The position numbers were made by a program, and so were the translations under genes. Positions 15,579-19,122 of a DNA stretch of 21,868 nucleotides are shown piece after piece (position 1 is the first letter of the stretch; each line of letters starts with the position of its first letter). The stretch covers positions 1 through 21,868 of the IMG/VR virus record IMGVR_UViG_3300043429_000168; one strand, given 5' to 3'. Below the pieces are notes generated by a model. The model had not been told where the DNA came from, did no database searches, and was given only the letters and a program-made list of their open reading frames with translations. This stretch comes from a virus.

Positions 15579-15972
15579 TTACTTCTTTCCTTTTTTCGTT
15601 AATCGACCATTGGCTTACTCCGGTAATGCGTTTTAGCATTCCCTGAGATGTGCCGTTATCTAGCACTTCAAGCACAAGTCTGTAGTCGGTTTGTTTGATA
15701 CTTTTTGAAAAGATAATTGCTCTCATCTTTTCTAGGTCTGAACCGTTTACTTTTCCACCAGTCTTTGCCGTCTTTGGAATAAGGCGACTGATGGCCACGT
15801 GGTTCATTCGGTTCTTAGTTAGTTTTGCTAATTGACGATTAGACATAACCCCATAGGATGCCACTTCTTGCAGTAGTTCCTTAAACTCGTCGTCGGTCAT
15901 TTTGTGCGCATTATCACGCAGACGCATTGCTAATGCGATAAACACTAGCGCCGTCTCTGGCTTTAGTTTCAT
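15547..15972 (-). CDS. Helix-turn-helix DNA-binding protein (putative)
   Basis: This 141-residue protein starts in an ATGA overlap with the primase-helicase stop. Two helix-turn-helix-like segments can be seen, about residues 44-64 (SNRQLAKLTKNRMNHVAISRL) and about 108-128 (SQGMLKRITGVSQWSINEKRK), each with the hydrophobic and Gly pattern of a turn between helices. The N-terminal 35 residues are a separate helical part. It could be a transcription regulator or a replication accessory factor binding the phage origin. The HTH call is by pattern only. Confidence 0.65.
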   Translation of the reverse strand: MKLKPETALVFIALAMRLRDNAHKMTDDEFKELLQEVASYGVMSNRQLAKLTKNRMNHVAISRLIPKTAKTGGKVNGSDLEKMRAIIFSKSIKQTDYRLVLEVLDNGTSQGMLKRITGVSQWSINEKRKEVNGPVLKESKI

Positions 15973-18167
15973 GACAGTATCTCCAAATATGTCTTGTGTG
16001 TTTCCACAACGGTTTTAACTCTGGCTTGTGAACGCAAAGCATCCACCATTTCATCGAACTCACGCTTACGCTTGTTACCAAAACGCTTGTACGCTTCTTC
16101 GTAGCGAACACGACCACCCTTGTTAGTGACAAAGGCCTCAAGGTTATCAACCTCTCGTTGCCACTCTGACTCACTAATCGATGCAGCCATGCGCACAAGG
16201 TTCTTAAACCAATCCTCTGAGTAGTGGATTGCAATTAGAACGTGGTCAACCTGCACTTCATCTGAGCGGTCGTACATTGTAAGTAACACGGCGCACTTCC
16301 AGATAGACAGCGCTAGACGCTGACGTGATGGCTCAATCGAATCTTCATTCGGGTGACCCTCCGTGAATGTGCCCATATCCCATTTGAACTTGTTGAATCG
16401 TGCAAGTGCTTCATCAGTCATGCGAACTGGGCGGGGGAATGGTGCACCCTTCTTCTGCCAGTACAGCGCACTATCGTAGATTGAACGCACAAGATCTTCC
16501 ATCTCATAATCTTGGTACGAAGCAACTTCGTCAGTAGCCTGCTCCACGGCCTCAAGTTCAAAGGTTCGCTCTGGTGCGTCAGCCACAACATACAAGAAAC
16601 GAGCCAAGAAACCTGAGCGGAAATAATCCACTGTAAGAATCTCAGACACTTTGCTTGTAATACCCATCAAGTACATGATGAAGTTAGTTTCAGCACGGTC
16701 AGATTGCACTGCGGTACTTGCGCTCTTACCACCGGTTGAACGAATCACAACAGGAACGTGACCGTCATAAAGTTCGGTGAACTGGTCAGCGGCTGTTGCC
16801 ATGTAAGTCTTAGTCACAAACTCTTTAAACATACCCTGGACTTCATCACGGTGGAACATTGATGTCATCTTGTCACGGCCAGCCAAGTGTTTCACAAGAC
16901 CTTCAGCGGTTACGTTTGAACCGATATCAATCTGGTAGCCAACATACTTCTCGTATGAGCGAATCATGCGAAGCATAAGTTGACGTGATGTTGACTTACG
17001 GCTAAGAGTTGTTTCACCAAGCAGCATGAACCAAAGATTTAGACCTAGTTTGCCATACTTTGGTGTGCCATATCCGGTATCAGAAAAAGCAGCAGATAGA
17101 ACAGTAAACGCAGATGCAATCTGGTACTGCACTGCACCGTCGGTTTTCTTACCGGCCCACGCAACATACTTGTCAATAAAGGTTGGGTAGCGGGCAACAA
17201 AGTCACGCTCTGCCGGCTCTAGGAAGTCAACAGTGCGTTCAAAGTCTGCCGATAGTTCTGCAGCAAGCGGTTCAATTTGCGCCTCTGGCTGGATGAACTG
17301 AGACTGCGCACGGATAACTTCACGCCATAGGTCACCATCTGCATCTAAACGCTTAGTGCGTGTAGGTGAGTGGTACTTGTTGCACTTAGCGTGTTTCGCA
17401 ATAACAAAGACTTCTTCAGCAGTAAGACCTGCACGAAACAATTCCATCTCAAGTTTCCAAAGCATCTTGGACATGTCCGAACTTGGTCCAGGCTGTTCAA
17501 GATACAGCGACATAATGTCAGTGTTCGCAGGAATCTTAGCCAATACCGCCATAACCTCTGGGGTTTTCTCTGGCATTGGTACATTAGAAACCTCCAACAC
17601 GGACTCAACCTCGACATCGGCGTAGACCTTCTCGATTTCGTCGAGGGTATATACTACGCCGGTCGAATACGCTTCAACCGTCTGCTTTTCAGCATACTTG
17701 CTATTGGCCGTGTTGGGGATTCTAAGTAGTTTGGTTGGGTTCCAACCAGACAAGTCGCACCCTTGATCCTTGTGCCCATAAGCAATGCGCTTAGAGGCCA
17801 TGGCGATGCGGTGTGGGTCGTATGAATTATCAAGGACCCAGTAAGTGTGCCATCTACCCTCAGATGTCTTTACGATAATCGAAGGCTGTAGACGAAAGTT
17901 CTCCGGCGCACAAGTGTCAGCGTCAGCGTAAACTACAGCAACAGACTTTGTGTTCTCACGAATGCGACGCTGTTCGTAGTACACGATTGGTGAGAAGTAA
18001 ACGTCACTAGCAGACTGCGTCTTTGCGTAGCCAACCATCTCATCAATGTCGTCAGGGTATGAGAAAAACTTCTGCACTGTTGGGTTGCCGTGAGCATCCT
18101 TGGTTACGATTGTGGCGTAACCGGCACCGTTGCCGTAAATCGTTTCGAGGAAATCTACTATCTCCAT
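15969..18167 (-). CDS. Primase-helicase (RepB-type primase plus ATPase)
   Basis: The product is about 732 residues. The N-terminal ~180 residues resemble RepB-like/prim-pol primases (VAVVYADAD, then WHTYWVLD, then GWNPTKLLRIPNT). The middle is an SF3/DnaB-like or DUF3987-type ATPase with a Walker-A-like GETTLSRKST near residues 384-393 and a Walker-B-like FHRDEVQGMF about 50 residues later. The C-terminus (about 660-732) looks like a winged helix. ATG 18167 is preferred because AAGGA lies 7 bases upstream; ATG 18182 is in frame but its AAAGGAG is only 1 base away. Upstream extension of the frame to 18275 runs through the tRNA gene and is not real. It presumably primes and unwinds phage DNA. 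Confidence 0.85.
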   Translation of the reverse strand: MEIVDFLETIYGNGAGYATIVTKDAHGNPTVQKFFSYPDDIDEMVGYAKTQSASDVYFSPIVYYEQRRIRENTKSVAVVYADADTCAPENFRLQPSIIVKTSEGRWHTYWVLDNSYDPHRIAMASKRIAYGHKDQGCDLSGWNPTKLLRIPNTANSKYAEKQTVEAYSTGVVYTLDEIEKVYADVEVESVLEVSNVPMPEKTPEVMAVLAKIPANTDIMSLYLEQPGPSSDMSKMLWKLEMELFRAGLTAEEVFVIAKHAKCNKYHSPTRTKRLDADGDLWREVIRAQSQFIQPEAQIEPLAAELSADFERTVDFLEPAERDFVARYPTFIDKYVAWAGKKTDGAVQYQIASAFTVLSAAFSDTGYGTPKYGKLGLNLWFMLLGETTLSRKSTSRQLMLRMIRSYEKYVGYQIDIGSNVTAEGLVKHLAGRDKMTSMFHRDEVQGMFKEFVTKTYMATAADQFTELYDGHVPVVIRSTGGKSASTAVQSDRAETNFIMYLMGITSKVSEILTVDYFRSGFLARFLYVVADAPERTFELEAVEQATDEVASYQDYEMEDLVRSIYDSALYWQKKGAPFPRPVRMTDEALARFNKFKWDMGTFTEGHPNEDSIEPSRQRLALSIWKCAVLLTMYDRSDEVQVDHVLIAIHYSEDWFKNLVRMAASISESEWQREVDNLEAFVTNKGGRVRYEEAYKRFGNKRKREFDEMVDALRSQARVKTVVETHKTYLEILS

Positions 18168-18202
18168 TGGCCCATCCTTCATTCTCCTTTTAATATTACA
18201 TG

Positions 18203-18274
18203 CTGCCCCCTCAGGACTCGAACCTGAAACCTCGATGTTAACAGCATCTTGCTCTGCCATTGAGCTAGAGGGCA
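18203..18274 (-). tRNA. tRNA-Asn (anticodon GTT)
   Basis: The minus strand folds as a full cloverleaf: acceptor TGCCCTC paired with GGGGGCA (one T-G pair), D stem GCTC/GAGC with a GG-containing loop, anticodon stem AGATG/CATCG with loop CTGTTAA giving anticodon GTT, a 5-base variable region, and T arm TCAGG/CCTGA with TTCGAGT. Discriminator G73. The top pair of the anticodon stem is an A-G mismatch. The 3' end continues CAT, so CCA must be added by the host. It lies between the structured RNA region and the primase-helicase gene. Confidence 0.96.
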
Positions 18275-18383
18275 TAGTACAGGTTATGAAAACCGACTGC
18301 CTGTACCAGTCAGGAGCAAATAGATTATAAGCCTATTTGTTATCTCCATAGAGCCCCTCAATTAAGACGAACTCTAGGCCACG

Positions 18384-18463
18384 TGGAACTGCTGGGAGTT
18401 GCACCCAGGTCCTACGCACGTCCGTATACGGCTTTAATGCGTAGTCGAAACTACTCCAGTCCC
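18384..18463 (-). ncRNA. tmRNA-like tRNA-like domain without tag region
   Basis: Acceptor GGGACTG (18463-18457) pairs with CAGTTCC (18391-18385), giving a G3-U70 wobble and discriminator A73, the alanine identity set used by tmRNA. TTTCGAC follows, matching the conserved D-loop sequence of tmRNA. CTACGCAT (18444-18437) pairs over 8 bp with GTGCGTAG (18419-18412), which corresponds to helix 2. The T arm is CTGGG/CCCAG with loop TGCAACT. The 3' part, GTAGGACCTGGGTGCAACTC, resembles actinobacterial tmRNA 3' ends as I remember them. Only 17 bases (with a CCG TATA CGG mini-hairpin) lie inside helix 2 where 200-300 would normally hold the tag and pseudoknots. CCA is not encoded. Confidence 0.72.
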
Positions 18464-18536
18464 TAGCGCCGTTTTGAACCATCACCAAGGAATGGCCGGG
18501 GAAATCCCAGCAAGATAACGGCAATCTGCTGGCCAG

Positions 18537-18606
18537 TGCCTCGGACAAGAATCGAACTTGTCTGCATCAAGGAAAGGAGGTAACTTGATGCTCCACCAGT
18601 GGAGGC
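18537..18606 (-). ncRNA. tRNA-like cloverleaf with anti-Shine-Dalgarno loop
   Basis: GCCTC (18606-18602) pairs with GAGGC (18542-18538), followed by an unpaired A at 18537. The T-like arm is GACAAG/CTTGTC with the canonical loop TTCGATT. In the place of the anticodon arm is an 8-bp perfect stem GCATCAAG/CTTGATGC (18591-18584, 18571-18564) with a 12-base loop TTACCTCCTTTC. Ten bases of the loop, ACCTCCTTTC, equal the 3' end of bacterial 16S rRNA. The D arm is vestigial; a CTCCA/TGGAG hairpin competes with the acceptor. It is not a decodable tRNA. Confidence 0.62.
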
Positions 18607-18648
18607 TAGTGAACCAGTTTAAAGACATGGTTCAGGTCTGCCCACTAG

Positions 18649-19122
18649 TTAGTTAACCCAAGCATCAGATACTGGGGTTGCACCAACTGCTGAGAGGTTA
18701 TCGACAGCCGAAGAAGCGCCCTTGGTGTTGAAACCAGAAACGTTGTTCTCCGCAGAATACTGTCCCTCTGCTTCACGGATGGTTACACGAGCCTCGGTTG
18801 CTTTACCAAGAATCTCTGAAGGTTCTGGAATAGCAAATGAACCCTTAACCGAGTAACCAAGAGACTCAAAGAAAGACTGAGTCTTCCAGAAGTCACCGGC
18901 CACATAGAGTGGAATGTAAACGAACAGACGACGGTTCTCGTACTGCCCTTCGGAAATACGCAACTGCACGTTCCAACGTGGCTTACCAGCGTTAGCACCA
19001 GACTTTACAGTCTCGGCCTTCACGTCGTACACGGTTACCGCATAGTTGCCCTTTGGCACTGGGCCAAGGTCGTTGCTCTTCTGCTGAGGCAGATTGTCTG
19101 GAATCTCAATGATAGTACTCAT
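18649..19122 (-). CDS. DUF669-like putative ssDNA-binding protein
   Basis: This 157-residue protein has the DUF669-like layout: a polar N-terminus, a beta-barrel-like core with GNYAVTVYDVKAETVKSG and QLRISEGQYENRRLFVYIPL, and an acidic, Gly/Ser/Ala-rich C-terminal tail. In phages such genes are often next to Sak4-type recombinases and are thought to serve as single-strand DNA-binding proteins. Here its ATG overlaps the stop region of the Sak4-like gene, which supports joint action. The core is clearly family-like, but ssDNA binding is inferred from context. Confidence 0.72.
   Translation of the reverse strand: MSTIIEIPDNLPQQKSNDLGPVPKGNYAVTVYDVKAETVKSGANAGKPRWNVQLRISEGQYENRRLFVYIPLYVAGDFWKTQSFFESLGYSVKGSFAIPEPSEILGKATEARVTIREAEGQYSAENNVSGFNTKGASSAVDNLSAVGATPVSDAWVN

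Follow-up and report, generated by a model that had tools for sequence, protein, structure and literature searches.

A pseudoknot-fused tRNA-like structure with an anti-Shine-Dalgarno loop, and a mini-tmRNA, between the DUF669 and primase genes of phages

What occupies the 372 nt that separate a DUF669 protein gene from a tRNA-Asn gene in a viral contig fragment of 21,868 nt (hereafter the window)? The preliminary description of this DNA had read the interval as one pseudoknot-rich non-coding RNA of about 370 nt, and the borders that it gave, with DUF669 ending at 18649 and tRNA-Asn at 18274-18202, are correct. The minus-strand gene order is a Sak4-like recombinase, DUF669, the 372-nt gap, tRNA-Asn and DNA primase, and the genes around the gap are as follows:

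18649..19122, minus strand: DUF669 protein gene (stop at 18649; Pfam DUF669)
18202..18274, minus strand: tRNA-Asn (GTT) (ARAGORN; RF00005 57.2 bits)
15969..18167, minus strand: DNA primase gene (phrog_10514 DNA primase, E 5e-167; start 18167 set from homology)

Because the window, a fragment of a phage contig, also has a WhiB-type gene, an actinobacterial host is suggested; a search of genome contigs for relatives of the primase found none. The AlphaFold model of the DUF669 protein (pLDDT 75) has the ssDNA-binding protein PrgE as its best PDB match (E 5.3e-5), and the protein has weak matches to PHROG SSB families, with nothing at a useful E-value in a PDB sequence search. We consider it probably an OB-fold single-stranded DNA-binding protein (SSB).

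A protein-coding gap was considered and rejected: the longest minus-strand frame inside it, a 71-aa TTG ORF, spans DNA largely not shared with two related loci (L001 and L002), in agreement with the earlier statement that no gene is supported here. The minus strand also carries more structure than shuffled sequences, in line with the dense helices described earlier: its minimum free energy is -133 kcal/mol (z = -3.2), a value to which none of 100 shuffles fell, and its perfectly complementary 7-mers form 11 pairs, where shuffles average 4.0 and 4 of 300 reach 11. At the gathering threshold, Rfam matched tRNA alone in the gap region, and at E up to 10 it listed tRNA, tmRNA, permuted tmRNA (E 1.8), mascRNA (E 0.11) and a plant-virus tRNA-like element (E 1.1), with no further families. 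A GOLLD- or ROOL-like RNA, a comparison raised in the preliminary description, was rejected, neither being matched at gathering or at E up to 10. Scans of the locus gave no promoters and one terminator-like site, which is chance level (shuffled mean 1.2).

Comparison with relatives, found via DUF669 and primase homology, shows that the conserved part of the gap is made up of two separate minus-strand RNA elements, which we call PK-TLS (element 1) and mini-tmRNA (element 2). In these relatives DUF669 and primase are usually separated by about 110-150 nt, and this gap contains PK-TLS, which in most loci occurs without the remainder of the window's gap. A single RNA of 370 nt, rich in pseudoknots and able to switch by alternative pairing, would account for the low folding energy and the excess of complementary 7-mers; yet the two compact elements lie in poorly conserved spacers that differ among the window, L001 and L002, PK-TLS stands alone in most loci, and the proposed switch, a pairing of GAACCAT (18633-18627) with ATGGTTC (18482-18476) that does exist in the window, has no equivalent in any of three relatives (L001, L002 and L003), so that we find this reading scarcely credible. 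The broader proposal of a functional, structured non-coding locus beside Sak4/DUF669 and primase genes stands, for the locus recurs in relatives, and covariation, which had been named as the way to check it, was found in both elements. Among the folds listed at the outset, the pseudoknot at 18639-18610 and the tRNA-like folds at 18606-18538 and 18463-18385 are backed by covariation, and a further pseudoknot can be drawn at about 18311-18277, directly ahead of tRNA-Asn, with pairing not evident by eye upstream of the tRNA-Asn of L001. RNase P processing at tRNA-Asn, also suggested there, seems plausible.

Element 1 is an H-type pseudoknot fused to a tRNA-like structure (TLS) that lacks a D-arm:

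18643-18535, minus strand: PK-TLS, whole element (covariation)
18643-18640, minus strand: conserved GGGC ahead of the pseudoknot
18610..18639, minus strand: H-type pseudoknot (parsed in 77 of 80 loci)
18639-18636 with 18626-18623, minus strand: pseudoknot S1 (L1 = 18635)
18634-18628 with 18616-18610, minus strand: pseudoknot S2 (A-rich L3 = 18622-18617)
18535..18606, minus strand: TLS without D stem (R2 window score 116.1 bits; covariation)
18606-18602/18542-18538, minus strand: 5-bp TLS acceptor (D-loop with TGG)
18591-18584/18571-18564, minus strand: TLS anticodon-like stem
18561-18557/18549-18545, minus strand: TLS T-arm (loop TTCGATT; then ACT)

The same parts are found in relatives, namely GGGC, a pseudoknot with an S1 of mostly 4-5 bp, a short L1, an S2 of 5-8 bp and an A-rich L3, and a TLS that, as fitted, has 5-7 acceptor pairs (mostly 5-6), no D stem, an anticodon-like hairpin and a T-arm with a TTCGATT-type loop. 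The pseudoknot comes in two sequence types, TGAGCA-like and GTGCG-like, which share one architecture. RNAalifold, run on a broader and less uniform alignment of 37 sequences (A3), recovered acceptor and T-arm, both showing numerous two-sided changes, and missed the anticodon-like stem and the pseudoknot, and a more uniform MAFFT alignment of 25 PK-TLS sequences (A5) was therefore built. In A5, 93.9% of cells were paired, as opposed to 30-43% for structures slid by 1-3 columns, a percentage biased upwards because the rows come mostly from loci where the parser had already found pairing. Two-sided change occurred in 19 of 26 pairs, and the covariation score was 0.485 versus 0.214 +/- 0.014 in shuffles. 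For the pseudoknot itself, 99% of S1 cells and 85% of S2 cells were paired, with two-sided changes (25 sequences); the second sequence type of pseudoknot was 97.6% paired and had two-sided change in 6 of 10 pairs.

The T-arm and acceptor architecture is common to the window's folds and to RF00005 and RF00023, but the TLS lacks the cloverleaf of a tRNA (RF00005), with its D-arm, 7-bp acceptor and 7-nt anticodon loop. Rfam at E up to 10 matched the TLS (18606-18538) to neither RF00005 nor RF00023, and ARAGORN was silent. For PK-TLS as a whole, Rfam offered no family at gathering or at E up to 10, and the open-licence papers searched gave no report of a similar element, which is weak evidence of absence.

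A model of the element, R2, finds a match at E 0.0004 or better in all 81 metagenomic SSB-primase junction loci searched (81 of 81), a set that includes the window and from whose kind the 25 training sequences of R2 derive, and it matches none of 10 unrelated viral control contigs, which came from a 14-mer scan that itself gave mostly chance matches. On the whole records behind 12 junction loci or contigs it hit 12 of 12, usually with one strong match, and in two of them also with a second, weaker one. Of eight cultured-phage loci with a related primase, two gave matches, both weak: E 0.09 in L064 (Arthrobacter phage Amigo) and E 0.11 in L066; by eye, Amigo and Molivia have a PK-TLS-type pseudoknot followed by odd tRNAs annotated as Gly(ccc), Gly or undetermined. 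A gene-independent motif search returned 41 contigs, and 7 of the 11 new ones examined proved by homology to be DUF669 or DUF669-primase loci, while 4 did not.

Some individual loci deviate from this pattern. Three DUF669-primase gaps (L052, L056 and L058) contain two TLS copies each, the first with a short hairpin and following the pseudoknot, the second with a CTCC loop and no pseudoknot found. Phage G009 has a primase PK-TLS and, at L390 (32269-32378, minus strand), a second TLS-like fold, one with a strong hairpin, before a 204-aa ORF and its Shine-Dalgarno (SD) sequence. At L365:1140-1205 there is a TLS-like fold with the loop TTTTCTCCTTTTGG (R2 29.8 bits) and no primase or DUF669 neighbour detected. 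In Clavibacter phage CN1A (L068:2505-2625), a pseudoknot-like hairpin and a tRNA-like fold that ends in CCA and lacks an anticodon arm lie directly before primase.

The loop of the anticodon-like stem, which the preliminary description did not mention, offers a clue to what PK-TLS may do. It contains CTCCTTT, the anti-SD motif of 16S rRNA, and the primase leader holds a complementary stretch:

18572..18583, minus strand: anticodon-like loop TTACCTCCTTTC (anti-SD motif CTCCTTT at 18579-18573)
18184..18190, minus strand: primase-leader AAAGGAG (complement of loop 18579-18573; lies 17-23 nt before the primase start at 18167)

CTCC is present in 68 and CTCCTTT in 50 of the 72 parsed loops, a count that left out 15 loci; shuffled loops contained CTCCTTT in 3.6 cases on average and in 11 at most. 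The loop is 88% pyrimidine.

To compare loops with leaders we used 79 loops, 60 of them distinct. The parser had handled 81 of 92 regions, some wrongly, taking a tRNA or mini-tmRNA for the TLS; 13 loci were left out by hand (L064, L065, L066, L067, L068, L069, L070, L071, L076, L078, L096, L109 and L120), and hand-read loops were substituted in seven (L001, L002, L005, L030, L038, L050 and L051). Swapping the primase leaders among loci gave poorer matches to the loop than its own leader did, at four levels of primase-identity clustering, in permutation tests that remove the kinship among the many related loci only in part. With 17 clusters (75% primase identity) the mean run was 7.65 nt versus 6.58 permuted (5 of 10000 permutations) and the energy -14.1 versus -12.1 (0 of 10000), and with 42 clusters (85% identity) the counts were 0 of 10000 for run length and 9 of 10000 for energy. 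Clustering by text similarity, which collapsed to 5 groups and was replaced by the primase-identity clusters, gave no significant effect (1148 and 3578 of 10000). Set against the remaining ribosome sites of its contig, the own leader was the better match in 137 of 186 comparisons (drawn from 32 clusters, with L038 and L041 also left out; Wilcoxon 5e-4 for energy and 1.6e-6 for run length). Other leaders matched better than the own one in L080, L086, L108, L116 and L121. Taken as sequence comparisons, these results indicate that the loop is co-adapted with its own primase leader.

We propose that PK-TLS sits in the primase leader as a translational operator, primase being the likely regulated gene; the conserved structure, the position, the loop motif and the co-adaptation of loop and leader provide a basis, in sequence, for this proposal. 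The pseudoknot would precede a tRNA-shaped fold whose anticodon-like loop, a copy of the 16S anti-SD sequence, may pair with the purine-rich stretch of the primase message to which ribosomes bind, and such pairing would mask the ribosome site and lower primase initiation until the loop is freed. Two candidate triggers can be envisaged: the SSB encoded just upstream might free the loop, in the way that gp32 of T4 acts on the pseudoknot of its own leader, or RNase P/Z might cut at the TLS. SSB feedback through the pseudoknot is attractive as a trigger because the adjoining DUF669 protein appears OB-fold-like.

The E. coli thrS leader is a tRNA-mimicking translational operator that mimics the anticodon arm for its synthetase and, like PK-TLS, places a tRNA-like element just upstream of the SD; unlike thrS, PK-TLS has an anti-SD motif at the anticodon position. 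The gene 32 operator of T4 and RB69 resembles PK-TLS in having a pseudoknot upstream of the ribosome-binding site of a phage replication gene, with an SSB involved (PMC535899). Unlike in gene 32, however, the pseudoknot of PK-TLS follows the SSB gene, precedes primase and is fused to a tRNA-like fold. Judged by the gene 32 pattern, PK-TLS has the pseudoknot and the position, and an OB-fold/SSB-like neighbour as its putative binding partner.

Where the loop would act is less straightforward. The stretch of leader that matches the loop overlaps the proximal SD in 23 of the 32 clusters; in the remaining 9, which include the window's own clade (L001; match at about -24 to -17), it falls outside, and plain masking of the SD is a less obvious explanation for that clade. 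The mean run does not differ between loci in which the TLS is close to primase (7.97, n = 38) and those in which it is far (7.87, n = 39), and the far group often has a tRNA or mini-tmRNA between the two, so that pairing could take place in trans or before processing. An alternative is that the TLS is cut free by RNase P and 3′ processing and acts in trans, as a small anti-SD RNA of tRNA shape, on phage or host SDs, of which the primase leader is only the best-matched target. Complementarity is undiminished with tRNAs between TLS and primase, AC directly follows the TLS acceptor in 69 of 72 loci, and the loop is generic enough to fit many SDs, 55 of the 60 distinct loops having CTCC. It is harder to see, for a trans-acting RNA, why the own primase leader should fit the loop better than same-contig ribosome sites or swapped leaders, and why PK-TLS should stay at one locus in nearly all records, and we think this alternative unlikely.

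The TLS could instead be processing punctuation, an RNase P substrate that separates the SSB and primase messages and whose loop is incidental. PK-TLS does lie between two co-directional cistrons, and tRNAs are common in the DUF669-primase gap, some gaps having real tRNAs alongside the TLS. A real tRNA would, however, suffice for this purpose, also in the gaps that have both; RF00005 finds no match in the TLS at E up to 10; and punctuation leaves unexplained both the prevalence of CTCCTTT and the co-adaptation of loop and leader. Its chances appear poor.

The second element corresponds to the tRNA-like domain of tmRNA, so that the earlier remark on tmRNA, which had set the locus apart on account of its pseudoknots lying outside the tRNA-like domain, came close: it is the second tRNA-like fold that is of tmRNA type.

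18381..18463, minus strand: mini-tmRNA, tmRNA tRNA-like domain only (fold 18463-18385, 79 nt; RF00023, covariation)
18463-18457/18391-18385, minus strand: acceptor (G3 = 18461, U70 = 18387)
18456-18445, minus strand: D-loop
18444-18438/18418-18412, minus strand: P2-like stem (small hairpin cap)
18408-18404/18396-18392, minus strand: T-arm

It has a tmRNA-type tRNA-like domain, with a tmRNA D-loop and no D stem, a T-arm and an acceptor. RF00023 scores it at 40.8 bits, below the gathering score of 47, in an alignment that spans model ends 1-374 and skips 302 middle positions; only 19 nt lie between the P2 strands, with no tag-coding mRNA-like domain, and it differs from a full tmRNA both in this sub-gathering score and in having no room for a tag ORF. 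The main form is 77-79 nt long, and the form in Microbacterium phages 87-89 nt. Among 11 aligned sequences, 15 of 22 pairs show two-sided change and all 11 have the alanine-type G3-U70. Ten distinct mini-tmRNAs came from a scan that did not require G3-U70, and all ten have it; with nine further sequences from cultured phages and one free-standing copy added to the eleven aligned ones, it is present in 21 of 21 distinct sequences, across eight acceptor stems.

The model R1 gives the window's copy, one of its training sequences, 98.5 bits; since most of the sequences that R1 matches had served to train it, the independent finds are those in Armstrong (L344), CeilingFan (L352) and L389. With the window's mini-tmRNA as query, blastn against phages gave partial matches only, one of which led to Microbacterium phage Armstrong, whose copy matches 108 records, 22 of them covering at least 80% of that query; in Streptomyces phages 172 records match, 82 of them with coverage of at least 80%. 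Mini-tmRNAs are thus located in cultured Microbacterium and Streptomyces phages (L344:685-777, L345-L351 and L352:204-284), and most of the matches listed have no annotated feature beneath them, the BAjuniper copy being annotated as tRNA-Pro(agg). The copy in Stenotrophomonas virus Jojan60 reaches 61.8 bits with RF00023, above gathering. In the same phage, four tRNAs in L066:997-1511 are annotated on the plus strand, and Rfam puts them on the minus strand. L389:601-683 (IMGVR_UViG_3300009164_000128, 44200-44282) is a free-standing mini-tmRNA between structural genes, far from the primase junction, with the acceptor GGGTATG/CATATCC and G3-U70.

By its predicted fold, element 2 is a TLD-only tmRNA, a kind already known and rarely reported. 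The literature describes a TLD-only tmRNA in mycobacteriophage DS6A, similar CDS-less forms in plastids (PMC11915505 for the latter) and CDS-less tmRNA in jakobid mitochondria (PMC4131195 and PMC11915505, which cite Mao 2009 and Jacob 2004). As described there, all of these, like element 2, have the tRNA-like domain of tmRNA without the mRNA-like part, and that of DS6A is also phage-borne. Set against those descriptions, element 2 comprises 21 related sequences whose P2-like stem is short and capped, an AAAGCC-type inner motif being found in most of its 77-79 nt forms, and the advance for TLD-only tmRNA is this breadth. One of the same sources reports strong inhibition of tmRNA by a similar molecule, which may act through titration of SmpB and is inhibitory whether or not it can be charged (PMC4131195). 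Element 2 would, to judge from G3-U70, be charged with alanine, and it may bind SmpB and compete with host tmRNA, which would damp trans-translation during infection.

Both tRNA-like folds might also be remnants of decaying phage tRNA genes, which are common in the gap and whose T-arms they resemble. Decay does not sit with two-sided covariation, an invariant G3-U70 amid varying neighbours and a conserved loop motif, which argue for active constraint on both folds, and we give this explanation hardly any weight. On balance, and by a modest preference, we favour the joint reading in which PK-TLS is a translational operator of primase and element 2 a TLD-only tmRNA that competes with host tmRNA.

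Both elements recur across many phages and could give them control of translation. We hold a wider interpretation tentatively, with more doubt than conviction: PK-TLS may be a new RNA class whose anti-SD anticodon loop reads ribosome-binding sites and not codons, linking SSB level to primase translation in a widely distributed group of phages, in cis or after release, while in some of them an alanine-chargeable mini-tmRNA alongside would disable host ribosome rescue. If so, phages would read Shine-Dalgarno sites with a tRNA-shaped RNA to control their own DNA primase, a form of tRNA mimicry not found in Rfam or in the literature searched. The mini-tmRNA, for its part, had seldom been reported from phages and now stands as a recurrent family with members in cultured phages, so that phages of Microbacterium foliorum and Streptomyces offer a direct test of whether phages suppress trans-translation in their hosts.
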